The position numbers were made by a program, and so were the translations under genes. A stretch of 64,000 nucleotides of DNA, from the NCBI RefSeq assembly GCF_003234965.1, contig NZ_QKVK01000006.1, forward strand, positions 1 through 64,000, given 5' to 3'. Source of the stretch: Aestuariivirga litoralis (GTDB lineage: Bacteria; Pseudomonadota; Alphaproteobacteria; Rhizobiales; Aestuariivirgaceae). Below, piece by piece: positions 1,941 to 15,043 of this stretch (position 1 is the first letter of the stretch; the number at the start of each line of letters is the position of its first letter). The notes beneath the pieces were generated by a model. It saw nothing but the letters and a program-made list of their open reading frames with translations. It had not been told where the DNA came from and made no database searches.

Positions 1941-3155
1941 CTAGCGGCCATTTCGCTGCAATCTCGACTTGATGGCTCTTGCAATGAGGCCGATGTCGCC
2001 CCGGGCCAGTGCGGCGCCGAGCTTGCGGCTGCGCTGCGTGGCGCGGTTCCAGCGCGTCGGGGGGCGGTAGCCGGCCACGCGGTCCTCCAGCATCCGCAGC
2101 CAGTCTCCCGTGACGTTGTGGCGGCGTGCATAGGCGATGATCGACTGGAGTTCGAGGAACTGAACCTCGTTGCGGATCGGCATGGTGGTGATCGCCGCCG
2201 GATCGAAGGGTGTGCTGAAACAGCCTGGCGTGGCATCACCCAGCGCCATGAAGTTCAGCCTCGTGCGGATGCACTTCTCGCAGGTCCCGCAGTTCTGGCC
2301 GGGGTCAGGCCCTTCCCAGCACACCTTGAGGCTGGTCACGGCCGTGGGGTGCCTGGCGATCAGGGCGACCTTCTCGGTTCGCGAATATCCAGCACCATCA
2401 TGGATGATGCGCATCTGGCTGCCTGACAGGAGATGGTCGGTGATGGGGCTGGAGCCCCAGGGTATCACCAGCGCGTCGTAAGGCTCGGAACTGCCGACCA
2501 GCGCATCGCTGTGATCGTGGGAGAAATTGTGCAGGCAACATGCAAGTTGGGCGGCAACCGAATCCTCCCAGTCCTGCGGCAGGGCCTGCCGCAGATTGGT
2601 GCGCACGACCCTGATGTCGAGGCCCAGCTGGCGGGCCAGTGGTGTCAGGCGTTCCGTGAGGCGGGCAAACCCGTCCACAGCGCTCAGCGGAACGTCGAAA
2701 CCATGCACCAGCACGAGCGTGTCATCGAGCGGCTGACCATCGAGGGCGCGGTTTTGCCGGCAATGGCGGAGCATGGTGAAGATCGAATCGACGCCACCGG
2801 AAAACGCCGCGAGTGCCTTTCGGGGGCGCACCCCGTCCAGATGGACAACGGTATCGGCCGTGATCGCGATACGCCGGTAGCGCTGCGGCCGCCACAAGGT
2901 CCACGCCTCCTGGTATTCACGCAGGTTGGCGAGCAGCTCGTGGCTTACCGCGCCGCGGACGTGAAGCGCCTCGCCCTTCTCCATGGCGTAGAAGATGACA
3001 CCGAGCACGAAGCCATCGAGGACGGCCGGAACTGCAAGATCCGTATCCGCGATCTCGAAGAAGATGTCCTTGGCTGCCGTACCGTCCCCGTGAAAGAGCG
3101 TGACGGTCCTGACGGTCCCTCTTCCGGATACCTCCTGCGAGAACCTCAACTCCAT
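1941..3155 (-). CDS. QueC-like PP-loop ATP pyrophosphatase-fold protein
   Basis: This 404-residue protein has an N-terminal region of about 110 residues of unknown type followed by a PP-loop domain with SGGVDS at residues 119-124, the AMP-forming nucleotide-binding motif. Cysteines C279, C289, C292 and C295 (NCGTCEKC) repeat the C-x(8,9)-C-x2-C-x2-C zinc pattern of QueC, the 7-cyano-7-deazaguanine synthase. QueC is about 230 residues, so the extra N and C domains and the gene setting argue against a role in queuosine. It probably adenylates a carboxylate to make an amide or nitrile bond, the step done by asparagine-synthetase-like proteins in related cassettes. It is the last gene of the minus-strand cassette, 83 nt after the nucleotidyltransferase gene. 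Fold assignment is solid; substrate unknown. Confidence 0.7.
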   Translation of the reverse strand: MELRFSQEVSGRGTVRTVTLFHGDGTAAKDIFFEIADTDLAVPAVLDGFVLGVIFYAMEKGEALHVRGAVSHELLANLREYQEAWTLWRPQRYRRIAITADTVVHLDGVRPRKALAAFSGGVDSIFTMLRHCRQNRALDGQPLDDTLVLVHGFDVPLSAVDGFARLTERLTPLARQLGLDIRVVRTNLRQALPQDWEDSVAAQLACCLHNFSHDHSDALVGSSEPYDALVIPWGSSPITDHLLSGSQMRIIHDGAGYSRTEKVALIARHPTAVTSLKVCWEGPDPGQNCGTCEKCIRTRLNFMALGDATPGCFSTPFDPAAITTMPIRNEVQFLELQSIIAYARRHNVTGDWLRMLEDRVAGYRPPTRWNRATQRSRKLGAALARGDIGLIARAIKSRLQRNGR

Positions 3156-3238
3156 GACTGCGTCCTCACTTGCAACCCCCTGACGTATAAGTCAGGCAAA
3201 CGCCCGTTTTCACTTCATCCCCGCCTCTCAAAACACCC

Positions 3239-4321
3239 TCAGGCCGGATTGCGGGACGGGTCTTGGCGCGGCCCCATGCCCTTGATGCGGCGACGCAGGC
3301 CGACGGCCGGCCGCAGGGCCGCGAGCAGGCGCACGGGGTTGAGGAGGCCGGCACGATCCTCCTCGAACAGCCGCGCCATGAGCCGGTGCAACTCGCCCTC
3401 GGCGTCGGAGCGGGCGCGCGCTTCGGCGATCTCGGTGGCGAACACCTTCTCGACGGCCTCCGTCGGAAAATCGGGGATGAACCGGTTGGCCACGGCAAGC
3501 GCCCTCGCCAGCCTGATCTGGAGCTTGCGGTTCAGGGCCTCCTGGCGCAGCAGCGCCCAGTCGAAATCCGGATGTGCACGCAGGATGGTGGCGGCATCAT
3601 AAAGCCAGTCCAGGCGTTCCTGGTGGCGATCGCGCAAGCCATTGAGCATGGCGGTGAGGAGCTCATCCTCCGGCGCGAGAACCCTCAGTGTCATGCCCTT
3701 CCACGTGATCTGCCGTGAGCGCTGCCAGAAGCCGTCATCGGCCCGCGGCGTGCGGCATTCGGCAAGCGCGTTCCAATGCAGGTCGACACCATTGCCGGCG
3801 GAGTCGGTGTAGTCGTCCGAATGCCGGTTGCGCGGGCTCGATCCGGCAGGCGCCTTGAGGCTGAAGCCAAGCCCGGCGAGCACGGCCTCGGCGCGCGGCT
3901 TGTCCGCGAGGTGGATCAGCACATCGCAATCACCGAAGGACCGGAGCGCCGCGCTGGGGTGATATTGCAACACCACGGCCGTGCCCTTGATGAGGATGAA
4001 GTCGATCCCGGCTTGCTGGAGGGCACGCAGCGTGCGCTCGATCACCGCGAGCAGCCGGCTGTTGCGATAAAGGAAGTAGCGGTAGATGCCCTTGAGGCGC
4101 CCCTGGTGCGGGGCCAGCACGGGGTCCGCGCCGGCCTCGGCGTAGAGTGCGGGGATAAGGCGGTAGGATGATGCACCGATCCTGTCGATATCCACCGTGA
4201 GCGCCCACTTCTGCAGGGCGGTGTGGCGGGACTGGCCCTCGCCGAGAAGTGCCTCCAGCATGTAGCCGTGGACCTCGCCGATGCCGGACCGCAAGAACGC
4301 ATAGAGATCCGGCAGGCTCAT
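3239..4321 (-). CDS. Nucleotidyltransferase family protein (NTP_transf_5 type)
   Basis: The 360-residue product resembles the uncharacterised nucleotidyltransferases found in exopolysaccharide and modified-peptide loci. The core is FILIKGTAVV (K112, G113) followed by R127 and the metal-binding pair D131/D133 in SFGDCDVLI. The DLHWNAL and ERLDWLYDAA segments are also typical of the group. The start at 4321 forms an ATGA overlap with the upstream glycosyltransferase stop, so the two are translationally coupled; the longer open frame upstream lies inside that gene. Relatives in lasso-peptide clusters act with kinases on the peptide C terminus, and others accompany glycan synthesis. Which applies here cannot be read from sequence. 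Confidence 0.75.
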   Translation of the reverse strand: MSLPDLYAFLRSGIGEVHGYMLEALLGEGQSRHTALQKWALTVDIDRIGASSYRLIPALYAEAGADPVLAPHQGRLKGIYRYFLYRNSRLLAVIERTLRALQQAGIDFILIKGTAVVLQYHPSAALRSFGDCDVLIHLADKPRAEAVLAGLGFSLKAPAGSSPRNRHSDDYTDSAGNGVDLHWNALAECRTPRADDGFWQRSRQITWKGMTLRVLAPEDELLTAMLNGLRDRHQERLDWLYDAATILRAHPDFDWALLRQEALNRKLQIRLARALAVANRFIPDFPTEAVEKVFATEIAEARARSDAEGELHRLMARLFEEDRAGLLNPVRLLAALRPAVGLRRRIKGMGPRQDPSRNPA

Positions 4322-5043
4322 GCCGGCTGCCCGTCCGCCGCCTGCGCCAGCTTCCGGCGGCGCAGCATCGATTCCCGCACGATGCGCAGCCGGCTGGCCT
4401 CGATCTCGGCCTTGCGGGTGAGCGTCATGTTGGCGCCATGGATGCGGCGGTGCATCACGATGTCGTCGATGAACCTGATGCGCGCGCCGAGGTCCTGCGC
4501 CCGGGCCCACCAGGCCAGGTCGCCATGCGCGGGATAGCCTTCGTCGATGCGGCCGAACGTGGTGACCGCAGAGGCACGCAGGATCGAGGATCCGGCGAGG
4601 TGCCCATGCTGCGGCCGTTGCGGCAGGGCAAGACGGGCCCGGTCAGCCTCGCTCATCTCGGGGGTGTGGAAGCAGGTGAAGCGCCCCGTGACGATGTCGG
4701 GCACCGGCGTTCCGGCAAATTGCGCCATGAGGCAGCCGATCGCGCCGGGTGCCAGCAGGTCGTCGGCATCGAGATGCAGGAAGAAATCGCCCTGCGCCTC
4801 GTCCATGCCGACATTGCGCGCCACCGCAAGACCGCCATGCGGGCGGCCGATCACCCGCACAGGCTGGCCGAAACCTTCGGCAACAGCGGCAGAGCGATCC
4901 GTCGATCCGTCATCCACCACCACGATTTCAAGCACCGGCCAATCCTGCGCGAGAACGCTGCTGATCGTCTCCGCAATGTAGCGCTCGGCATTGAAGGCCG
5001 GGATGATCACGCTGATGCGGCCAGAGGATATGTCGTTCACCAT
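4318..5043 (-). CDS. Family 2 glycosyltransferase (first of a tandem pair)
   Basis: A 241-residue GT-A fold protein that transfers a sugar from a nucleotide-sugar donor. It shows the GT2 opening SVIIPAFNAERYI (11-23), the UDP-binding VVVDDGSTD (41-49) and the metal-binding DADD at 92-95. No membrane segment is present, so it should act at the cytoplasmic face. The start at 5043 lies one base after the stop of the second glycosyltransferase (TGACATG), and the stop overlaps the next start as ATGA. At 241 residues it has no room for extra domains. The acceptor is unknown; the neighbours suggest a peptide, protein or lipid carrier handled by the cassette. Confidence 0.85.
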   Translation of the reverse strand: MVNDISSGRISVIIPAFNAERYIAETISSVLAQDWPVLEIVVVDDGSTDRSAAVAEGFGQPVRVIGRPHGGLAVARNVGMDEAQGDFFLHLDADDLLAPGAIGCLMAQFAGTPVPDIVTGRFTCFHTPEMSEADRARLALPQRPQHGHLAGSSILRASAVTTFGRIDEGYPAHGDLAWWARAQDLGARIRFIDDIVMHRRIHGANMTLTRKAEIEASRLRIVRESMLRRRKLAQAADGQPA

Positions 5044-5044
5044 G

Positions 5045-5797
5045 TCAGTCCTTCCCCGGCGGCCCGGATTCGCGCTGTGCTGCAAGCGGGGCCAGCGACT
5101 TTGCCTCGCCCTGGCCCGACCTGCGGCGCTGCAGCGACTTGCGCAGCATGAGCGCGAGGTACGTGCGGTTGGCCTCCTGATCGCGCGTGATGTTGCTCCA
5201 GTGCAGCCGCTGGCGCAGCAGAAGCCCGTCATGGAGCAGCATTGGAACCTGGCACTCGCGGGCGCGCATGAACCAGTCCCAGTCGTCGCAGTGGCGCAGG
5301 CTCTCATCGAGCATGCCCACCTGATCAAAGACGCTGCGGCGGAACAGGCAGACGCCGAGCTGGGTGGAAATCTTTTCCTCGGTCTCGATCGCACGGAAGA
5401 CCAGCGGCTCCCCCGGTTCACTGGCAACCTCCTCGCGTTGCAGGCGGCCGATGGCAATGGCCGCCGCCTTGTCGCCGCGCAGCTTCGCAACCTGCAGCGC
5501 CAGTGAGCCTGGCTCATAAACGTCGTCGGCGTCGAGGAAGCCGATGAACTCACCCTGCGCCACGGCCAGGCCACGGTTACGGGCCGATGGCGGCCCGCCA
5601 TTGGCCTGGCGGATCAGCGTCACCTCGGCCCCGAAGGCCTGCACGGCTTCGGCGGTGCCGTCCGTCGAGCCGTCATCGACGACGATGACCTCCTTTGCCG
5701 CGTGGCTCTGCTGCAGCACGCTGCGAACCGCCGCGGCGACGAAGAGTTCGGCATTGTATGCCGGGATGATGACACTCACCAGGCCCTCAACCGGCAT
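5045..5797 (-). CDS. Family 2 glycosyltransferase (second of a tandem pair)
   Basis: A 250-residue GT2 protein with VSVIIPAYNAE near the N terminus, VVDDGSTDGT (D41, D42) and DADD at residues 89-92, followed by a DESLRHCDDWDWFMRA acceptor-side segment typical of the family. I chose the ATG at 5797 because the conserved fold begins four residues later. An in-frame ATG at 5845 would add 16 residues without homology and lie deeper in the kinase gene. The start overlaps the kinase 3' end by 11 nt. It is clearly related to the next glycosyltransferase but not a recent duplicate, so the two may add different sugars. Confidence 0.82.
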   Translation of the reverse strand: MPVEGLVSVIIPAYNAELFVAAAVRSVLQQSHAAKEVIVVDDGSTDGTAEAVQAFGAEVTLIRQANGGPPSARNRGLAVAQGEFIGFLDADDVYEPGSLALQVAKLRGDKAAAIAIGRLQREEVASEPGEPLVFRAIETEEKISTQLGVCLFRRSVFDQVGMLDESLRHCDDWDWFMRARECQVPMLLHDGLLLRQRLHWSNITRDQEANRTYLALMLRKSLQRRRSGQGEAKSLAPLAAQRESGPPGKD

Positions 5798-6821
5798 GCT
5801 GCACCGCTCTGTGATGGATGATGCCGAGCAATTCGCCGGCCGCACGCGAGGGATCGCCGCCGACCCTCAGCCGCCAGCACGGCAGTTCGCGCAACACGGC
5901 GGTGATGGCGCCGAAGGACTTCGCCCGCTCGCCCGGAAGCTGGAACAACGTGCTCGGCGCAAGCGCGCGCAGGGCTTCGGCACGTCCCAGCGGCTCGGCC
6001 GTGCAGCCGTTGCCCGGCACGATCATCGGCACGACGACGGCGCGCAGCGGCGCCGCGCGCTGCAACGCCGCCGGACAATGCTCAGCGAGGAAGATGATCG
6101 ACTTGCCTCCGGGGTCCTTGAGGCCGGCGGCAAACGCCGGGCTGAGCAGCGGCAGGCGGGCGATGGAATTGCCGTCTGCCTTGCCGCTGCTGAACAGCGA
6201 ATGGACCATGGGCCATGGGCCCGGCTGCAGCAGGCAGTAGTCATCCGAAAGATAGTTGAGCTCTGAGCCGATGCAGGCCAGCGCCGTCGTCGACTTTCCG
6301 GATCCGCCACGGCCCACCAGCAGCACTGCTCCCTCCGGACGGCCGACGGCCGCGCCATGAACGAGTTGCAGCCCGTGCCCGGCCGACCACCAGTGCAGGA
6401 TGCGCAGGAAGGGAGACCCCGGTTCCCAGCTCGAAAGCGTGGCGTGATCGGGCACCCGGAACAGTGCCAGGCCGCGGGACGCATCATAGGCTTCGAGGCG
6501 CCTTGTCTGATGATCGGCGGCAAAGCGCAACGGTCCATCGAGGAACGTCACCCCCTGCTCCGTCCCGGCAAGGGCCGGCTCGGGCGTGGACACGCCCGCC
6601 GCCGCGTCGTCCCAGCACAGGATGGTGAGGTCCGCGGCGCTGGGCTGCGCTCGCTCGAGGTGGCCGAAGGCCGGAAGAAGCCGCGACGCCAGTCCCCGGC
6701 CGGCAAAGCGGAAGCGCAGCGTGTGCTCCGCGATGCGGCAGCTGTGCTCGACGATGCCGGAGGGCTCCGCCTGCGCGAAGAGAATGCCGGCAAAATCGAA
6801 GAGACTGCGGGGATCGGTCAT
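5787..6821 (-). CDS. HprK-related kinase (HprK-rel-A type)
   Basis: The 344-residue protein has an N-terminal beta-rich region (1-140) and a P-loop domain resembling HPr kinase/phosphorylase. Visible motifs are HGAAV at 155-159, a Walker A GRGGSGKST at 170-178 and LSDDY at 191-195, where HprK places its catalytic aspartate. HprK phosphorylates a serine on the carrier protein HPr; no HPr or PTS gene is near. Its direct coupling (ATGA overlap at 6818-6821) to a PqqD-like protein matches the HprK-rel-A/PqqD pairing seen in several proteobacteria and recalls the HprK-like kinases that phosphorylate lasso peptides. The likely target is therefore a peptide or a glycan carrier. Confidence 0.8.
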   Translation of the reverse strand: MTDPRSLFDFAGILFAQAEPSGIVEHSCRIAEHTLRFRFAGRGLASRLLPAFGHLERAQPSAADLTILCWDDAAAGVSTPEPALAGTEQGVTFLDGPLRFAADHQTRRLEAYDASRGLALFRVPDHATLSSWEPGSPFLRILHWWSAGHGLQLVHGAAVGRPEGAVLLVGRGGSGKSTTALACIGSELNYLSDDYCLLQPGPWPMVHSLFSSGKADGNSIARLPLLSPAFAAGLKDPGGKSIIFLAEHCPAALQRAAPLRAVVVPMIVPGNGCTAEPLGRAEALRALAPSTLFQLPGERAKSFGAITAVLRELPCWRLRVGGDPSRAAGELLGIIHHRAVQHAG

Positions 6822-7240
6822 TCCGCCTTCGGGTTCTTGATCGGCCAGCCGGCTTCCGTCACTTCATGGATGGGGTCGATGAGCAGCATTTCCTGCATGT
6901 CGGTGAATTTCTGAAGCTGCGGCGCGGCGAACACCCCACGCGGCGCGAAGGGGCGCGCCGCATCCCGCCCGGCTGTGGCGTAGGGCACGACGAGTTCCTC
7001 CGCCACCAGTTGGGCAACGAAATCGGCCACGGGCTCAGCGACGCTCTCGCGCGCCACACCGGCATCGTCGGCGAGGCAGGCGGCAATGTCATCGGCTGTC
7101 CAACCGGCGGCCAGTCCCTGCCACACGTCGAGCGCCGCATCACGCAGGCTATAGTAAGTACCGGACTGGAGATGGATGACCACGGCCTCGCCGTCGAGGA
7201 TCTCGCTCACCACATCAGGTTCATTTGGCCGGTACTGCAT
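6818..7240 (-). CDS. PqqD-like (RRE-fold) protein with a conserved-looking C-terminal tail
   Basis: Residues 1-85 have the PqqD pattern: a beta-hairpin containing ILDGEAVVIHLQSGTYYSL followed by a helical part ending in FVAQLVAEELV. PqqD folds bind leader peptides and present them to modifying enzymes. Unlike PqqD (about 90 residues), this protein has 140 residues. After a linker, residues 111-134 form a distinct segment, KFTDMQEMLLIDPIHEV followed by TEAGWPI. I recall similar tails in PqqD-like partners of HprK-related kinases. It is the first gene of the cassette, preceded by an AGGA ribosome-binding site, and overlaps the kinase start by 4 nt. The tail may be a substrate segment or a docking element. 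Confidence 0.75.
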   Translation of the reverse strand: MQYRPNEPDVVSEILDGEAVVIHLQSGTYYSLRDAALDVWQGLAAGWTADDIAACLADDAGVARESVAEPVADFVAQLVAEELVVPYATAGRDAARPFAPRGVFAAPQLQKFTDMQEMLLIDPIHEVTEAGWPIKNPKAE

Positions 7241-8095: not shown

Positions 8096-8848
8096 TCAGA
8101 GACCCAGGGCGTCGATGTCCACGGCCTTGGCCGCATCGATGCCCTTGAGGGCAAAGGCGCTGGCGGGAGGCACCTCGGAAGACCAGCCGGTGAAGGTGAC
8201 GGCGGCGCTCGCCGCGACATCCCCCGTCCCGGAGAACCACGTGCCGTTGATGCGCGCCGGAAGGCTGGTGCTGCGGTCGACCCAGACCTCGCCGGTGAAG
8301 CGCCCCCCCATCACCGCGTCAAGTGTCGTCTGCTCGGGCTGGTCGGGCAGGCCCTGGGCAATGGGCGTGATGGAATTGACGCCACCGAAGAAGTCCGTGG
8401 CAGGATCCTGGGACAGAAGGCCGAGGAACGGAATGAAGAGTCCCGGCACCATGAAGGCAGCCCCCCTCTCCGGCGCCAGCTTCACCACCGTCTTGGCGGC
8501 CAGCGACAGGCGCAGCAGCGTGGCCTCGCCGCCGGTGATCAGCATCTGCACATCCGGTTCACCGCCGCCGCCGAACACCGCGAACAGGCTGTCCGGACGC
8601 GTGAACACGACGCTGGCGCGCGTTCCCAGCGTCTTGAGCCGATCCTTGGCAACGGAGGCGCCGAACACCGAGTCCGCCGTGAAGGACAGGGCCTTCGCCG
8701 CCTGCAGCGCGGCCAGCGTGTCGTTCACGGCACCCGCTCCATCCGGCGCCGCGGCGCGCACTCCGGCCGTGCCAGCAATGGCCGCAACGGCACCACCCGC
8801 CAGAAACCCGGCAAATCCACGGCGGCCGATCATCAAGTCATCACGCAT
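8096..8848 (-). CDS. Tat-exported DUF2092-like periplasmic protein
   Basis: The 250-residue product starts with a twin-arginine signal (IGRRGFAGFLAGGAVAAIAG, cleavage probably near VRAAA), so it is exported folded. The mature part has the feel of the DUF2092/LolA-like barrel group: FTADSVFGAS, VVFTRPDSLFAVF, then a VWVDRSTSLPARI segment in which a hydrolysis-like D-R-S-T lies on a strand. The ATG at 8848 has a GGGA ribosome-binding site; an in-frame start at 8914 would place 22 residues before the signal peptide. No operon partner is seen. Function unknown; a lipoprotein- or outer-membrane-related role is possible. Confidence 0.6.
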   Translation of the reverse strand: MRDDLMIGRRGFAGFLAGGAVAAIAGTAGVRAAAPDGAGAVNDTLAALQAAKALSFTADSVFGASVAKDRLKTLGTRASVVFTRPDSLFAVFGGGGEPDVQMLITGGEATLLRLSLAAKTVVKLAPERGAAFMVPGLFIPFLGLLSQDPATDFFGGVNSITPIAQGLPDQPEQTTLDAVMGGRFTGEVWVDRSTSLPARINGTWFSGTGDVAASAAVTFTGWSSEVPPASAFALKGIDAAKAVDIDALGL

Positions 8849-9169
8849 GTCTGTTTCCCTGTCCTGGCCTCGATACACGCTGGCAGATCCTGTCGGCCAT
8901 ATCAAACTCCGCAATCACATACCACTTGGAGGACATGGTGGAACTGCCATTCACAAAAAGATTGCGCCCAGACAACCCTGGCGCGAACGCTGACCTTGCG
9001 GGTTTCGGTGGCATCGTGTCCCGCCGCGTGTTTCGCTGACACGCCTTCTGATTGCAGCCTGCAAGAATACAGCCATCTTCGTCTCGATCCGGTGGCAGCC
9101 GTGCGTGTTACAACGCGCTTATGAAAGATGTTTAGATACTTTTGCATCGCAAACGTTCATTCTGCAGTG

Positions 9170-9721
9170 ATGAGAACCAGAACTGCGAATTACCTGGTCA
9201 TGGCCTGCTGCAGCCTGGCCTTGGCATTGCCATCCCTCATGCCGCTTTCTGCGACTGCTGCAACAATCGATTCCAAGACGGCATGCCGTGCCGAAGACGT
9301 GATCACCTCGCTGGCTGGCGTAGCGCCCGACAAGCTCGACTTCTTCGGCAAGCCGAAGGGCCAGGGCTCCTTTGCCTGCGAGGCCTATTTCTCGTTCAAG
9401 CTCTATGCCGAGGTGTGGACGCGCATCAACGATCTGGCGGCCACGCTGAAGACAACCGAGGCGATGTGCACCATCAACGGTCTCGTCACCCTGCCGAAGC
9501 TCGACGCGCTGCAGATGACCTATGACATCACTGCGGCGGGGCAGTTCACGGTCACCTCCGTCAACAACGGCCTGCCGACGGATGCGCGCAGGCTGTCCGG
9601 CAGGCTCAAGGCCGGCCTCGCCCGCCTCGCGGCGCTGCGCGATGCCGACGACGACACGATCTATCGGCAATTCGCCCGCCGCAACTGCCCGGAGGCCGAC
9701 TATCCCGACGAGATGGAGTGA
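9170..9721 (+). CDS. Secreted protein of unknown function
   Basis: The 183-residue product begins with a Sec signal peptide (basic MRTRTANY, a hydrophobic core to about residue 25, and a signal peptidase site near SATAA). The mature part contains four cysteines, two of them in TACRAED and GSFACEAY, which could form disulfides in the periplasm. I do not recognise a domain. The ATG at 9170 is preferred over 9128 because it puts the signal peptide at the N terminus. It is separated from its neighbours by more than 90 nt on each side and is probably transcribed alone. Confidence 0.6.
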   Translation: MRTRTANYLVMACCSLALALPSLMPLSATAATIDSKTACRAEDVITSLAGVAPDKLDFFGKPKGQGSFACEAYFSFKLYAEVWTRINDLAATLKTTEAMCTINGLVTLPKLDALQMTYDITAAGQFTVTSVNNGLPTDARRLSGRLKAGLARLAALRDADDDTIYRQFARRNCPEADYPDEME

Positions 9722-9813
9722 CGGCCCAGTGAGCCCGACAGGGGCCCGGTTGCCTCACCCCGGCAATGCAATATGATGCGCCACAACCCTGAACCTGCCC
9801 GGCCCTGCGCCCC

Positions 9814-10731
9814 ATGCAGCGGCCGGAATTTGCCGTGGAGCGCCTGCGCGTGCCGAGATTCAGCCTGATCGTGACCTGCAAGGGGCGCCTGATGCACCTG
9901 CGGCAGACCCTGCCCCTGTTCTGCCAGCTGCCCGGCTGCGAGGTGACGGTGGTCGATTATGGCTGCCCGGACCGCAGCGGCGACTGGGTGGCGGCGCATT
10001 TTCCCACGGTGAACGTGGTGCGGGTCGAGGATGATCCCGGCTTCAACCCCTCGCGCGCCCGCAACATCGCGGCGCGGGCCAGCACGGCGGACTACCTGTT
10101 CTTCGTCGATGCCGACATCCGGGTGGCAGCCAATGCGATGGATGCGATCAGCGCCGCCGTCACGCCCGAGACCTATGTGACCATCGATGCCACGGAGCGC
10201 GGCGATGACCTGCGCGGCACGGCCGTCGTGCCGCGCGCGATGTTCGAGGCGGTGGGCGGCTATGACGAGCTGCTGCGGCACTACGGCATGGAAGACACCG
10301 AGCTCTACACGCGGCTCACCGATTACGGCTGCAAGGATGCCTTCATCCCGCCCGACGCCTTCACGGCCATTCCGCATGGCGACGAGCTTCGCACCACCTT
10401 CTTCCCGACCAAGTCGGTGCGCAAGCTGCGGCTGATCGCGCAGTTCTATCAGGAATACATCAAGGTGTTCCGCCGCTCGGTGCGGGTGCCGCAGCTGGCA
10501 CTGGAGGACCGCGAGCAGATCCACGCCGCGGCCTGCTCGCTGGTGGAACAGCTGACCGCCGCAAGCGACCCGCGCAACGGCGCCCGCCTCGGCCTGAAGC
10601 TGCCGCTCATCCGGCCCGAAGACAAGATCGGGGGCGACATGGACTGGCAGTTCGAACTGACCATGACGATGAAGCCGCGCAACCCCTCGGCCTTCCGCCA
10701 GGCCTACCGGAACCCCCTGCTGCGGCGCTGA
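9814..10731 (+). CDS. Family 2 glycosyltransferase with galactosyltransferase-like C-terminal part
   Basis: A 305-residue soluble glycosyltransferase. The N-terminal half opens with FSLIVTCKGRLMHLRQTLP and has TVVDYG and a metal-binding VDAD (FFVDADIRV) at about residues 97-100. The second half carries FEAVGGYDELLRHYGMED, the signature of GT27-like C-terminal domains that read donor and acceptor. A GTG at 9850 with GGAG ten bases upstream is an alternative start that would remove 12 residues. The gene converges on the BON-LysM gene across a hairpin. Acceptor unknown. Confidence 0.8.
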   Translation: MQRPEFAVERLRVPRFSLIVTCKGRLMHLRQTLPLFCQLPGCEVTVVDYGCPDRSGDWVAAHFPTVNVVRVEDDPGFNPSRARNIAARASTADYLFFVDADIRVAANAMDAISAAVTPETYVTIDATERGDDLRGTAVVPRAMFEAVGGYDELLRHYGMEDTELYTRLTDYGCKDAFIPPDAFTAIPHGDELRTTFFPTKSVRKLRLIAQFYQEYIKVFRRSVRVPQLALEDREQIHAAACSLVEQLTAASDPRNGARLGLKLPLIRPEDKIGGDMDWQFELTMTMKPRNPSAFRQAYRNPLLRR

Positions 10732-10734
10732 TGG

Positions 10735-10759
10735 CCCGGGCCGCGCCGGGCGGCCCGGG
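10735..10759. terminator. Bidirectional hairpin between convergent genes
   Basis: CCCGGGCCGC and GCGGCCCGGG form a perfect 10-bp stem with a 5-nt loop, placed between the ends of two convergent genes. No T tract follows on either side, so termination efficiency is uncertain. Confidence 0.55.
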
Positions 10760-10767
10760 GATCGACG

Positions 10768-11205
10768 TCAGCCGAGGTCGGGAATGCGCAGCACCTGGCC
10801 GGGATAGATCTTGTCCGGGTGCGACAGCATCGGCTTGTTGGCCTCGAAGATCACCTGGTGCTTGGTGCCCGTCTTGTAGAAGTGCTCCGAAATCTTCCAC
10901 AGATTGTCGCCCTTCTTGACGGTGTAGAACACCGGCTCCCTGGCGTCCGGCACTGTCACCTCGGCCTCGACCTTGGAGATGCCCTGGGTATTGCCGATGG
11001 CCACGATGGCCTTCTCCAGCACCTCCTGGCTCGACACGTCGCCGCGGATGATGGCCTTGTCACCCTTCACCTCGACCACGACCTTCTCGGTGCCCAGGCT
11101 ATGCGAGTCGAGTTCCTTCTTCAGCGCGTCGGCGCTGGGGGCCTCGTCCCTGGACCCGATGCCGATGGACTTGCCGGCGGACTTGATGAAGTCGAAGATA
11201 CCCAT
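10768..11205 (-). CDS. kbp: BON-LysM domain protein, Kbp/YgaU-like
   Basis: The 145-residue product has a BON domain (about residues 25-90, with VVVEVKGDKAIIRGDV) followed by a LysM domain (about 95-143, FYTVKKGDNLWKISEHFY ... GQVLRIPDL). This architecture and length equal E. coli Kbp (YgaU), a cytoplasmic potassium-binding protein linked to the osmotic and stress response. No signal peptide is present, which agrees with a cytoplasmic location despite the LysM domain. The ATG at 11205 follows a good AAGGAG site; the in-frame extension to 11286 is not needed. Confidence 0.85.
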   Translation of the reverse strand: MGIFDFIKSAGKSIGIGSRDEAPSADALKKELDSHSLGTEKVVVEVKGDKAIIRGDVSSQEVLEKAIVAIGNTQGISKVEAEVTVPDAREPVFYTVKKGDNLWKISEHFYKTGTKHQVIFEANKPMLSHPDKIYPGQVLRIPDLG

Positions 11206-11649
11206 GATCTGCTCCTTGCTTATGATCAACTTAGTGGCCGCTCCTTCAACCCCGGAGCCGACGAGGAGTCCACCCGAATATCGCAATTCTGCACCGGGAT
11301 CATGACGCCGAGCTAAGCAACGTGTTTTTACTTAGTTTACTCTGGGCTGTTTCTTCCGGCGTTTTTGCCCGTATTGGCTGGTAATGTCGCAGATGAGTTA
11401 TGCTAAGTTGAGGTCGCACCGCAGCCACCTTCTCCGCTTCCGGCAATATTTCTTGCCCTGGTTGCGTCTCGCGGTGTCTGTGCAGACCCCCTAAATCGCT
11501 ATCTGCAATACACTTTTATTTCCGATTGACTGGACAGTCAGCAGTTGTTAAATCTTCTTTTGTAATCGATTGTGGTTTGGGTGTTTCAAAGTTCCCGAAC
11601 CTTTTGGGCTTGAACTTATCAAGCCAGATAATGCGCGCGGACCAATCAG
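11206..11649. other. AT-richer divergent control region
   Basis: These 444 nt separate the minus-strand kbp gene from the plus-strand tadE-like gene and are clearly less GC-rich than the neighbouring genes. I see no coding frame. It holds a possible promoter with an inverted repeat (listed separately) and several A/T runs between 11320 and 11640. Confidence 0.5.
11526..11554 (+). promoter_or_regulatory. Candidate promoter with overlapping inverted repeat upstream of tadE/tadG
   Basis: TTGACT (11526-11531) and TAAATC (11549-11554) are 17 nt apart. The -35 overlaps an inverted repeat TGACTG-GA-CAGTCA at 11527-11540, which could be an operator. The -10 match is weak (three of six). Confidence 0.3.
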
Positions 11650-12132
11650 ATGCTGGCTTTCAGGAAGAGCAACAACAGGCTGTCCCGGCTGCGGGACGAT
11701 ACCGACGGTTCCGTACTCGTGGAATCCGCGCTGATCATGCCGATGGTCGTTCTGTTCATTGCAGGCATCGCCGACTATGGCGTCACCCTCTATCAGTACC
11801 ACACACTCTCGACGGCAAACGGTGCGGCCGTGCGCCAGCTGGTCGTGAGCCGCGGCTTCGACAAGCCATATGAAGGGGTTCTTGCGCAATACGCCGAGTG
11901 GGCTCCCAATCTTTCGGTTAAGGGCAGCCAGATCACGGTATCGGTGGAGAATTCCTCCGGCAAGTTGACGGCCTGCACTGACGGTACAAGCCCAAGCTGC
12001 AAGACCTTGCTGGACGCCGGCGCCGGCAAGCAAGGCTCCATCTCGCTGAATTACCCCTGCACGGTGACCTTCATTCCAAGCATGGCGAGCCCGTGCCCCA
12101 TCAAGATCACGGCAAGCGGGATGATCGAATGA
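11650..12132 (+). CDS. TadE-like pilus assembly protein
   Basis: A 160-residue protein with the TadE/TadG N terminus: a short basic cytoplasmic part, then DTDGSVLVESALIMPMVVLF (about residues 18-37), in which the glutamate before a hydrophobic helix is characteristic. The remainder is periplasmic and contains four or more cysteines. TadE pseudopilins support Flp/Tad pilus assembly for adhesion. Its stop overlaps the next start (ATGA at 12129-12132). No tadABC, rcpA or flp gene lies in the window, so the pair is detached from the rest of the machinery. Confidence 0.8.
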   Translation: MLAFRKSNNRLSRLRDDTDGSVLVESALIMPMVVLFIAGIADYGVTLYQYHTLSTANGAAVRQLVVSRGFDKPYEGVLAQYAEWAPNLSVKGSQITVSVENSSGKLTACTDGTSPSCKTLLDAGAGKQGSISLNYPCTVTFIPSMASPCPIKITASGMIE

Positions 12133-13901
12133 TGAGCAAGTTCCCACGGCGGATGGTCCGCTTCGGCAAGGACGAGTCTGGCGCAGCCTTCATCTACTTC
12201 ACGATGACCCTGCCCGTACTGATCGCTCTGACGTCGATGGCGGTCGATCTCGGCTATGTCTGGTATGTGAAGACACGCCTGCAGGTGGCCGCTGACATGG
12301 GAGCACTGGCGGGTGCATCCAAGCTCTACACGGACAACGCAAAGGCCGTCACCGATCTTGCCACCACCTATGTCAATTCGAACCTGCCTAGCGACTGGAC
12401 AGGTGGCGGCAAGACGACGGCGTCCGGCAAGCCGAAAATCGAATGCCTGACCACCATCTCGAATATGGGACTGACCTGTTCGAGCCTCAGTGGCGGAAAC
12501 GCCCTCAGGGTGACGGTCAATGCAAAGGCACCGCTGTTCTTCGCAACGATGCTCGGCTTCAAGTCGATAAACCTGTCGGCGGAGGCAATGGTCACCGGTG
12601 GCGGGTCTGCGCCGCCGCCGCTCAATGTCGCGATCGTGCTTGATGCCACGGCATCGATGGCCCAATCACTCGGCACCTCGTGCGGCTCGCTTACGAGCCC
12701 GAAGAAGGTCGAGTGTGCAAGCCTCGCGGCGAAAACGCTGATGACGAAGCTCTGGGCGTCGGTCGACCAGGTCGCGCTCTATGCCTATCCCGCGTTCGAC
12801 ACGGCCAGCAAGGACATCATCACCTGCAAGACCGGAGCTTCAGGTTCCGCCAATTGGATCAACTACTCGACGCTGACGAGCACCCCGAATTACCGGCTGG
12901 TCGACTTCAACGACACATTCACGGACAAGGGCACTCCACCGACGACAGGCCTGGACGTCACCAACCCGCTGGTGAAGGCCTTTGGCAAGACTCCGACTGC
13001 CGCCCCGAAGAACGACACGACGACCTGCAACGGACTGAACAGCGCGGCCATTGGTGTGGGCACATCCATCGCCGATGCCATCGTGCAGGCACAGAACGAC
13101 CTGATTGCCGCCAATGATGCATTGGTCGCAAAGGGAGAGCCCAAGCGCCAGAATGTCTTGATCGTCCTCAGTGACGGCGACGCCAACGGCAACAGCAAGT
13201 CTCTCCTGAGCGCGAACCCGCCCGACGACTTCAGGCCGGGCACCGACCTCTACGGCAAGACCAGTTCAAGCTGGGTCGTGGATGTCCATCGGATGATGGA
13301 TCAGTGCCAGGCTGCGGTGACGGCGGCCAAGGCCGCGGCAGCCACCGGAACGTGGGTGTACTCCATTGCCTTCGCAGCTCCCTCTACTGCCAAGGGGTCC
13401 TGCTTCACCGACAGGCCGGTGACCACCGTCATAAAGACAGCCACCTCCACGCCAGCCCTGACGTCGGCTGACAACATCGTCACCACGAGATCGTGCAGCA
13501 GCAGCAACAAGTGCAAGGCGATAGCATCAGCTCCGACCAGTCAAATCACGTCGACGATCAAGGCTCAGGTCGCATCGACGTCGCAGGTTGCCGTCACGAC
13601 GTGGGGAAAGACCATCGTGACGACATGCACCAAGCCTGATGGCAGCACGAGTGGTACCTGCACGACGACGCTGACACCTTCGAAGGTCCAGACTGACACT
13701 TACGATCTGACGAAATACGACACGACCGCCTGCGCCACGATGCGGGCCATCGCATCCGATCCGTCCAAGTTCTACTCGACGGATGGCAACACGAAGTGCG
13801 CATCTTCCGCAAACCCAAACTTCACTGACCTCGTCAAGATATTCAACAATGTCGCAGCGAGCATCATGAAGAAGCGGCGCATCCCCAGCAGCACGACGTG
13901 A
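12129..13901 (+). CDS. TadG-like protein with von Willebrand factor A domain
   Basis: The 590-residue product starts with a Tad-type membrane helix (ESGAAFIYFTMTLPVLIALT) and the YVWYVKTRLQVAADMGALAGA segment of TadG. A VWA domain follows from about residue 167 (NVAIVLDATASMA), where the metal site reads D-A-T-A-S instead of the usual D-x-S-x-S. The domain is interrupted by long Thr/Ser-rich inserts, and the LIVLSDGDANG strand comes later. It probably sits on the outer face of the inner membrane and acts in pilus anchoring or adhesion. The start is set by the ATGA overlap with the tadE-like gene. Confidence 0.8.
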   Translation: MMSKFPRRMVRFGKDESGAAFIYFTMTLPVLIALTSMAVDLGYVWYVKTRLQVAADMGALAGASKLYTDNAKAVTDLATTYVNSNLPSDWTGGGKTTASGKPKIECLTTISNMGLTCSSLSGGNALRVTVNAKAPLFFATMLGFKSINLSAEAMVTGGGSAPPPLNVAIVLDATASMAQSLGTSCGSLTSPKKVECASLAAKTLMTKLWASVDQVALYAYPAFDTASKDIITCKTGASGSANWINYSTLTSTPNYRLVDFNDTFTDKGTPPTTGLDVTNPLVKAFGKTPTAAPKNDTTTCNGLNSAAIGVGTSIADAIVQAQNDLIAANDALVAKGEPKRQNVLIVLSDGDANGNSKSLLSANPPDDFRPGTDLYGKTSSSWVVDVHRMMDQCQAAVTAAKAAAATGTWVYSIAFAAPSTAKGSCFTDRPVTTVIKTATSTPALTSADNIVTTRSCSSSNKCKAIASAPTSQITSTIKAQVASTSQVAVTTWGKTIVTTCTKPDGSTSGTCTTTLTPSKVQTDTYDLTKYDTTACATMRAIASDPSKFYSTDGNTKCASSANPNFTDLVKIFNNVAASIMKKRRIPSSTT

Positions 13902-14003
13902 TTGGTCGACGTGTCCTCAGCGCGCGTGATGGTCAGGCCTGCTCCGCCTGAAAGCTGGCCGGCCGCAGGGCGGAACCGGTGAAGCTAGATTGATTTCAAC
14001 GCC

Positions 14004-14186
14004 ATGAACGAGGACGGAATACTCTTTCTCTCCGCGGTGTTGGAGATACTTTTCCTCTTCAGCACTGCCTTTGCATTGATCGTATTGTGGGTCAGGTTTC
14101 GGACCAAGCGATCGTCAAGGGAGAAGGACGGCGTTGCATCGGGTCCGCGACGAGGCGGACTGACGGACGAACGCCGCAAGGAATAG
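14004..14186 (+). CDS. Possible small single-span membrane protein
   Basis: A 60-residue frame (MNEDGILFLSAVLEILFLFS...) encodes one strongly hydrophobic helix (residues 5-30) followed by a basic tail, an arrangement that rarely arises by chance. No ribosome-binding site is visible, and no family is recognised. The remainder of the gap between 13902 and 14245 shows nothing else. Confidence 0.3.
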   Translation: MNEDGILFLSAVLEILFLFSTAFALIVLWVRFRTKRSSREKDGVASGPRRGGLTDERRKE

Positions 14187-14245
14187 CCGCGGCGGCAGAC
14201 GCCGGCAATTGTCGGGAAGCCAGCATGGCGCTGTCGAAGGCCAGT

Positions 14246-15043
14246 TCACACATCCCCCGAGATCGCCCCGATGATGCGCTTCGGCCCCAGGCTGGTGTCG
14301 CCGCCGAAGGGGTTGTCGATGATGATGTTGAGGGCCAGGATCACGCCGAGCGCGCTCATCTGGATGAACACCACCTGCGCGCCGTAGCGCGTCACGCCGT
14401 GGCGGCCCGCCAGCACGCAGGCGGAGAGGAAGAACATGCCGATCATCAGCCACACCACGTCGGGGATGCCATTGACCGAGGCCGAGAGGCGGCTGGTGCG
14501 GGCATCCTCGATCTTGTGCATGTAGTCGCTCAGGTCATAGCCGAGATTGGGATTGTCGTTCCTGAGCAGCGCCTGCAGCCGCCGCACCTCCGCCCACAGC
14601 GCGTTGAGTTCGTTCTCGGCGATGGGGGAGAGCGACTGCGGCCGCCGCGCCAGCCGCGGCCACTCATCCGCCGCCACGCTCGCCACATAGGCGCGCAGCA
14701 GCCTGCGCCCCTGTGCGCCATCGGCTTCCAGCCGGGAGAGGTCGCGGTCCACCCGCTTGATGGCCAGCGCCTCCAGCGTCACCTGGTGGTCGGCATTGCC
14801 GAAGCTGGTCAGCTCGCTGGTTGTGATCAGCGCCAGCAGGAAGGCGATCAGCGCGAGGATGGAATTGTGCACGCCGTCGCCCATGTTGCGCGAGGGTTCG
14901 CCATCATTCACCACGCGTGACCACCACAGGCGGTGCGCGAGCTTGGCGATCGCCACGCCCAGAAGCCCGGAGACCACGGCGCAGCCAAGCAGGATCAGCA
15001 GGTCCGGAACGCTGAGCGAAAGATTGTAGAGAATGTCGATCAC
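14246..15043 (-). CDS. DUF4239 (bestrophin-like) membrane protein
   Basis: A 265-residue protein with two hydrophobic N-terminal segments (residues 12-32 and about 60-80), a soluble helical middle and two C-terminal segments (about 193-213 and 222-242). The block VNDGEPSRNMGDGVHNSI after the first segment and NPFGGDTSLGP near the end are typical of DUF4239, a family that may share the bestrophin channel fold. Transport is not proven for the family. It lies 12 nt downstream of the divergently unrelated ScpB-like gene end, transcribed separately toward the TadG gene. Confidence 0.65.
   Translation of the reverse strand: MIDILYNLSLSVPDLLILLGCAVVSGLLGVAIAKLAHRLWWSRVVNDGEPSRNMGDGVHNSILALIAFLLALITTSELTSFGNADHQVTLEALAIKRVDRDLSRLEADGAQGRRLLRAYVASVAADEWPRLARRPQSLSPIAENELNALWAEVRRLQALLRNDNPNLGYDLSDYMHKIEDARTSRLSASVNGIPDVVWLMIGMFFLSACVLAGRHGVTRYGAQVVFIQMSALGVILALNIIIDNPFGGDTSLGPKRIIGAISGDV

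Follow-up and report, generated by a model that had tools for sequence, protein, structure and literature searches.

Ribosomally synthesized and post-translationally modified peptide (RiPP) recognition element (RRE) proteins as a rule recruit a precursor that has a gene of its own. Among the described systems, the LPP RiPPs, such as lpp of Paenibacillus alginolyticus, possess an RRE, an HprK-like kinase, an NTP transferase and an MsbA-like transporter (PMC13381572, May 2026). The RREs of lasso and LPP pathways bind a leader motif [Y/W]xxPx[L/V/I/F/A] (PMC13381572), and in both kinds of pathway the HprK-like kinase places its phosphate on a Ser of the precursor (PMC8498205, PMC13381572). In the pseudomycoidin pathway, whose kinase is PsmK, the nucleotidyltransferase PsmN places one or two hexoses on the phosphate (PMC8498205); LppN was inactive in the authors' host, and a missing partner or substrate was proposed (PMC13381572). 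Here, we analyzed a cassette of Aestuariivirga litoralis (Rhizobiales), located in the first 64,000 nt of contig NZ_QKVK01000006.1 of assembly GCF_003234965.1 (this whole stretch is called the window). It encodes a PqqD-like protein, an HprK-like kinase, two GT2 glycosyltransferases and an NTP_transf_5 nucleotidyltransferase. The enzymes are known from pathways of the LPP/paeninodin type, and the novelty appears to lie in a precursor-like tail fused to the RRE and in GT2s within the core, both of which are apparently undescribed.

The PqqD-like protein (140 aa; 6818..7240, minus strand, as are all window genes below) scored over the PF05402 cut-off (45.3 and 43.9 bits in two scans vs. 23.4). 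Its RRE, a lasso-B1-type winged helix (residues about 8-88; 6977..7219), gave TbiB1 (5v1v/5v1u, leader-bound) and 6jx3 as the best Foldseek matches and was linked by HMMER to TbiB1, PbaB1 (9x90), TfuB1 and LppB (9x8z). Moreover, the lasso PqqD model was the commonest NCBIfam match in aligned relatives (57 of 63 members at 1e-5). The RRE is followed by a leader-like segment with the [F/Y]xxPxL motif (residues 103-113, VFAAPQLQKFT; 6902..6934) and by a core-like conserved tail (residues 114-133, DMQEMLLIDPIHEVTEAGWP; 6842..6901). The consensus reads [F/Y]xxPxL and then D-M-x-x-L-L-x-x-D-P-[I/V]-H-[E/D]-V-x(3-4)-G-W-P. In an alignment of 21 PqqD-like proteins from loci found through the kinase, D114, D122, P123, H125, G131, W132 and P133 were invariant in all rows; the tail of locus L054, which retains DPIH and has lost GWP, was left out as degenerate. 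Since the regular expression used to collect a set of 100 tails imposes D, P, H and W, the conservation of these residues was taken from the 21-row alignment. Among the 100 tails, the start conformed to [F/Y/W]xxPx[L/F/V/I/M], with the aromatic residue, 18 positions before the invariant Asp of DPxH, present in 87 and the Pro in 90. In the LPP motif, the Ser that becomes phosphorylated follows the Tyr at the same distance. The initial annotation had assigned the PqqD family correctly and had overlooked this tail.

The recurrence of the cassette was evaluated from two directions. A kinase search over 297 genomes of the same order yielded only 33 matches, counting that of the window, and these were spread over 25 genomes. 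The kinase is thus rare, and stretches of up to 20 kb around all 32 non-window matches were compared. In the first 20 loci, mostly the best-scoring, PqqD-like and GT2 genes were present in 20/20 and NTP_transf_5 in 19/20. The remaining 12 comprised three tail cassettes (L165, L166 and L170), six loci with a tail-less PqqD and three without a detected PqqD. Overall, a PqqD with the full tail occurred in 22 of the 32 loci, accompanied by GT2 in 22/22, by NTP_transf_5 in 20/22 and by the lasso B2 protein in 0/22. The other ten consisted of L054, the six tail-less loci (five with B2, one with an Asn-synthase relative) and the three without a detected PqqD (one with B2), giving B2 in 6/10. Weaker kinase relatives lay mostly in lasso-like sets without the tail. 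The contrast in B2 (0/22 with the tail vs. 6/10 without) indicated that the tail cassette and lasso-like sets separate within the kinase family.

Furthermore, the tail pattern [LI]L[LAI]DP[IV]H[ED]V was scanned over 84,980 species genomes, which returned 455 stretches, 367 of them encoding PqqD-like relatives, and the best 80 were kept (L062-L141). In these loci, which were selected by part of the tail itself, the kinase was found in 71, GT2 in 71, NTP_transf_5 in 56 and all three in 51, with gene presence scored within about 9 kb; many contigs end early. By record titles, they span at least 15 phylum-level groups, including Chloroflexota, Cyanobacteria, Verrucomicrobia, Lentisphaerae, Planctomycetota, Acidobacteria, Actinomycetota, Gemmatimonadetes, Nitrospirae, Ignavibacteria, Bacillota, Bipolaricaulota, Cloacimonadota, Rokuibacteriota and Pseudomonadota. 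On a cyanobacterial Crinalium plasmid (L061), genes annotated in the record itself as PqqD, nucleotidyltransferase and HPr kinase adjoin one another. The order PqqD-HprK-(GT2)1-5-NTP_transf_5 was kept in 24 loci of a 102-locus set, which combined L041-L141 with the window's first 20 kb and represents 100 distinct places (L042 = L126, L043 = L099). The occurrence of the same families together across phyla indicated that the grouping is not due to chance and that the PqqD-like, HprK-like, two GT2 and NTP_transf_5 genes form a real five-gene cassette. The neighbourhood search proposed in the initial annotation thus bore out the grouping of the kinase, PqqD, GT2 and NTP_transf_5 families, and the rare co-occurrence that it had named as counter-evidence was not what we found. 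A second, divergent cassette was also noticed in the same genome (L060, G000:C12:348001-368000), with PqqD at 11160-11579 and HprK at 10171-11154, both on the minus strand, the tail DPIHDIDPQRGWP, GT2 and GT4 genes, and an NTP_transf_5 relative on the other strand.

Several lines of evidence point to an interaction between the RRE and its own tail. For the window protein, AlphaFold2 (AF2) modelled residues 101-110 with a mean predicted local distance difference test (pLDDT) score of 95 and placed a strand at residues 109-112, at positions +5 to +8 from the tail aromatic. The leader of LppA pairs with the RRE sheet of LppB through residues Y+4 to Y+9 (Tyr at -16; residues -12 to -7) in the structure of the two (PMC13381572). 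The start of the tail also resembles the lasso leaders of L151, for example KLPYKKPTLTPYGSIQNIT. From the strand position, the leader-like segment would join its own RRE as an added beta strand in cis. In addition, LppB D70 bonds the leader Tyr and LppB N33 fixes the turn at the Pro (PMC13381572). Residue 70 of the present family corresponds to LppB D70, both lying four residues before the conserved Phe74 in the comparison with 9x8z. It was Asp in 11 of 23 Tyr tails, 2 of 60 Phe tails and 1 of 4 Trp tails (Tyr vs. Phe, Fisher p = 4.7e-6), and position 33 was Asn in 10/23 Tyr tails vs. 6/60 Phe tails (p = 0.0013), in statistics that ignore ancestry and include the two duplicate loci. A permutation analysis placed columns 71 and 70 at the top of 82 tested for association with the tail aromatic, the invariant column 27 being without a value. 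Taken together, the leader-type motif, the B1-like RRE, the confidently modelled segment and the covariation argue for recognition of the tail by the very RRE to which it is fused.

The tail was scarce within single phyla. It was detected in 7 of 398 genomes of Pseudomonadota and in 4 of 201 genomes of the phylum of L083, an Anaerolineales metagenome-assembled genome (MAG); in both counts, the centre genome and a single weak match are among the genomes scored. In a profile search for a stand-alone tail over these two genome sets, all matches lay in frames of at least 79 aa, the shortest being weak and partial, although a short gene might lie within such a frame. No separate short precursor emerged among 4815 short intergenic open reading frames (ORFs), in which no similarity family occurred in more than three loci, a comparison that a variable precursor could escape; the 15 families listed were confined to L041, L042 and L126, the last two being one place. 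The loose pattern YxxPxL returned 217 ORFs, of which the first 60 looked like chance, and the same pattern does recover the typical L151 lasso leaders. A separate short precursor was therefore rejected for want of a recurrent short-ORF family beyond three loci, and the recurrent short conserved ORFs that the initial annotation had advised looking for did not appear.

The kinase gene (344 aa; 5787..6821) fell under the cut-offs of PF07475 and TIGR04352, and its assignment as HprK-like rests on a Protein Data Bank profile match and a predicted fold. A profile of 48 relatives ranked HPr kinases first (1jb1, E = 2.3e-7), and the AF2 model (mean pLDDT 93.9) matched PEPCK and HprK/P. In the 48-row alignment, His155 and Asp193 were invariant, and Lys176 of the Walker A/P-loop (GRGGSGKS, residues 170-177; 6291..6314) and Asp194 were conserved in at least 90% of rows. 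In the alignment to HPr kinase, these positions match its catalytic His, Lys and Asp-Asp residues. In a Pfam scan that took in eight window proteins, GT2 glycosyltransferase a (250 aa, ATG start at 5797; 5045..5797; PF00535, 115 bits), GT2 glycosyltransferase b (241 aa; 4318..5043; PF00535, 110 bits) and the NTP_transf_5 nucleotidyltransferase (360 aa; 3239..4321; PF14907, 133 bits) all scored above the cut-off. A DxD motif was seen by eye in each of the three, within GDCDVLI in the nucleotidyltransferase. A sixth gene on the same strand encodes a QueC/ExsB-like ATP-pyrophosphatase-type protein (1941..3155), so that the six ORFs cover 1941..7240. The junctions are a 4-nt overlap (PqqD/HprK), an 11-nt overlap (HprK/GT2a), a 1-nt gap (GT2a-GT2b), a 4-nt overlap (GT2b/NTP_transf_5) and an 83-nt gap (NTP_transf_5-QueC). 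The positions, strand and junctions in the initial annotation were all reproduced, as were its family assignments, by Pfam for PqqD, the two GT2s and NTP_transf_5, by structure profile and fold for the kinase, and below the threshold for the QueC-like protein.

Compared with the LPP RiPPs, the present set shares the lasso-B1-type RRE (here with the added tail), the HprK-like kinase, the NTP transferase, the absence of a lasso cyclase, a YxxP-type leader and sugar genes often nearby, and MsbA-type ABC exporters stand beside some of the loci. In contrast, LPP pathways have a separate precursor, YxxPxVLxHQxIxFETxxS with a variable C-terminus, instead of a conserved and different tail in cis, and they have a phosphorylated Ser, whereas the position of the same spacing here is Asp. 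Their SpI peptidase had no counterpart among the accessory Pfam families listed here. LPP pathways are also said to be restricted to Bacillota, whereas the present block spans many phyla and has GT2s within it, and neither an RRE-precursor fusion nor GT2s as core genes were found in the available LPP description (PMC13381572). Paeninodin and pseudomycoidin likewise share an RRE, an HprK-like kinase and a hexose-adding nucleotidyltransferase (PMC8498205), but their macrolactam synthetase and B2 occurred in 0 and 1 of the 102 loci, respectively. Because the defining features of both groups fail despite similar chemistry, the set was not filed under LPP or lasso/paeninodin. The HPr-rel-A system resembles it in combining a PqqD-like protein with an HprK-related kinase; however, the scores for TIGR04352 and TIGR04353 were far under the cut-offs (31.6 of 200 and 23.7 of 35), and a literature search on that system found nothing. 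Fusions of RREs to PF00535 are known from the RRE-Finder work (PMC7470986, PMC12710340), but the available text of these papers mentions no tail motif, and neither nucleotidyltransferase nor kinase (PMC12710340) nor HPr (PMC7470986). In the 2025 survey, 21% of PF05402 proteins were too long to be a discrete RRE and had no further Pfam annotation (PMC12710340); the present protein falls into this class, and its family offers one explanation for part of it. No description of this RRE-tail fusion was found in the open-licence literature searched, supplements lying outside the search. The statement in the initial annotation that no described pathway holds this set was therefore only partly sustained, the RRE, kinase and NTP transferase being shared with LPP RiPPs and the fusion and core GT2s not being found described. 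There is a chance that the cassette represents a class of its own, and the LPP/paeninodin enzymes of Bacillota are tied to a much wider group.

Lasso genes were looked for with fetched queries using phmmer. Macrolactam synthetase (Asn_synthase-like) was found in 0 of the 102 loci, window included, and B2 in one, L138, together with a separate tail-less PqqD. The initial annotation had reported lasso cyclase and protease genes as absent, which holds in nearly all loci. A lasso peptide cluster was thus rejected for the tail loci, the B2 of L138 belonging to a separate set and L166 being the exception to watch. In L138, a Bacillota MAG, a set of tail-less PqqD, B2, HprK and NTP_transf_5 adjoins the tail cassette (3865-7192 and 8944-13396), an arrangement reminiscent of the LPP and paeninodin clusters that are reported to co-localise (PMC13381572). 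Separately, Oscillatoria PCC 10802 carries a lasso cluster with two near-identical precursors (L151) about 10 kb upstream of the tail cassette L104.

We lean towards a RiPP-like pathway akin to those of LPP and paeninodin, in which the RRE has its leader and core fused to it and glycosyltransferases have been added. The precursor would not be a separate gene but would be welded to the C-terminus of the PqqD-like RRE. The RRE would bind its own [F/Y]xxPxL segment as an added beta strand and present the DMxxLLxxDPxHEV...GWP core to the enzymes. The HprK-like kinase may phosphorylate the core or something that the core presents, and NTP_transf_5 and the GT2s may then add and extend sugars, following the pseudomycoidin model of phosphate first and hexoses on the phosphate. 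Given the GT2s in the block and the extra sugar-modifying genes, a phospho-glycosylated peptide is the natural reading, and a constant carrier with sugar enzymes of variable number and kind suggests a constant peptide with a genome-specific glycan. In some hosts, an MsbA-type ABC transporter might export the product. The peptide or carrier that the initial annotation had supposed to be phosphorylated and glycosylated thus agrees, by inference from the families, with a peptide-tailoring system.

Apart from the disregard of ancestry in the covariation statistics, a number of observations weigh against this pathway. No Ser, Thr or Tyr is invariant in the tail, and in 14 of the 100 tails the stretch between D(-8) and the 24th residue beyond GWP is free of all three. 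An LPP-type phosphoserine is thus not general, and as a general acceptor it was rejected, the position of the same spacing being Asp; the acceptor would be either the invariant Asp or His, or lineage-dependent, or else the tail presents something different. The core part of the AF2 model is of low confidence (blocks in 111-140 averaging 73, 54 and 62), and the D70 and N33 contacts are missing from most RREs, the window itself combining a Phe tail with P70 and R33. No leader peptidase was recognised among the 25 listed of 64 Pfam families (85 of 119 unassigned ORFs), which is unusual for a RiPP. The DxD motif, by a rough pattern, was missing from 23 of 87 NTP_transf_5 copies. An ABC-cluster member of 500-760 aa, a candidate counterpart of the MsbA-like exporter of LPP, occurred in 28 of the 102 stretches, not always inside the cassette, whereas the window's first 20 kb contained none; counts of ABC, GT4 and epimerase genes are rough, as the Louvain clusters mix related families. 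Finally, in one of the three further tail loci (B2 in 0/3), L166, an Asn-synthase relative (10777-13785) separates the kinase from the GT2 within the tail cassette (9268-14468), which might represent a tail pathway that has gained a cyclase-like enzyme. The NTP_transf_5 copies without DxD include those of L043, L056 and L061, among others, and L056 and L061 each hold a second copy with DxD.

A tentative and less probable alternative is that the tail is a docking segment or pseudo-leader that recruits or regulates the kinase and glycosyltransferases, the acceptor being another molecule in trans, whether a variable peptide, a lipid or a polysaccharide. A core motif that is near-invariant across phyla without an invariant hydroxyl is what would be expected of a protein-protein interface, and in L084 the tail is internal, between the PqqD and a GT2 domain. 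However, the segment resembles the true L151 lasso leaders and covaries with leader-contact residues, and no recurrent trans peptide was found. If the tail is not the acceptor, the motif would act as a docking code, as yet unexplained, for an HprK-like kinase; if it is, it would provide a simple peptide-glycosylation platform, with [LI]L[LAI]DP[IV]H[ED]V as a search handle for hundreds of clusters. The tail is near letter-for-letter alike in Chloroflexota, Cyanobacteria, Planctomycetota, Acidobacteria, Pseudomonadota and others, and the sugar enzymes vary. We also considered, as a rather unlikely extension of the fused-precursor pathway, that the proteins are phylum-spanning self-presenting carriers, whose near-invariant core, RRE-fused and uncleaved, would be activated by the kinase at the invariant Asp (as an aspartyl phosphate) or His, instead of Ser, and would prime genome-specific glycans assembled by exchangeable GT2s. 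Such carriers would constitute a protein-borne alternative to lipid-linked glycan assembly.

That the cassette belongs to an ordinary exopolysaccharide or capsule locus, with the kinase and PqqD as regulatory passengers, appears quite unlikely. Many copies do lie among GT2, GT4, epimerase, sulfotransferase and methyltransferase genes (some surroundings add carbamoyltransferase genes), and LPP and paeninodin clusters, too, often lie within capsule loci (PMC13381572); nevertheless, the block order is kept amid otherwise different neighbourhoods, and kinase-GT2 (six loci) and PqqD(tail)-GT2 (one) fusions were found in seven ORFs. A pathway of six genes with an acyl-adenylate step contributed by the QueC-like enzyme, as the initial annotation had proposed, is highly improbable. 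The gene lies on the same strand, 83 nt downstream, and its product shows FSGGVDS and a CxxCxxC stretch by eye with sub-threshold Pfam scores (PF06508, 14.3 bits; PF19932, 22.3 bits). However, no relative was found in the 101 other loci or in the 12 further kinase loci, and relatives elsewhere adjoin a polysaccharide pyruvyl transferase gene in three of four plasmid regions (Azospirillum, Gloeothece and Gemmobacter; in the fourth, from Nostoc, they do not). With no relative in the other loci and different company elsewhere, the QueC-like gene was rejected as a pathway member and the unit comprises five genes, not six; of the single coupled cassette originally described, the five genes stand and the QueC-like gene drops out.

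The QueC-like family and the polysaccharide pyruvyl transferase genes (window 1941-3155; L005, L006 and L007) may themselves be an unstudied pair. An IS3-like transposase ORF, recognised by eye at 789-1793 of the window, borders the region and may bear on its mobility. Upstream of the cassette, a DUF2092 gene (8096-8914) has a copy in a congener (L010:12488-13240, 4e-107), near which lie a gene that is possibly ATP-grasp-like, by eye, and a distant QueC relative.

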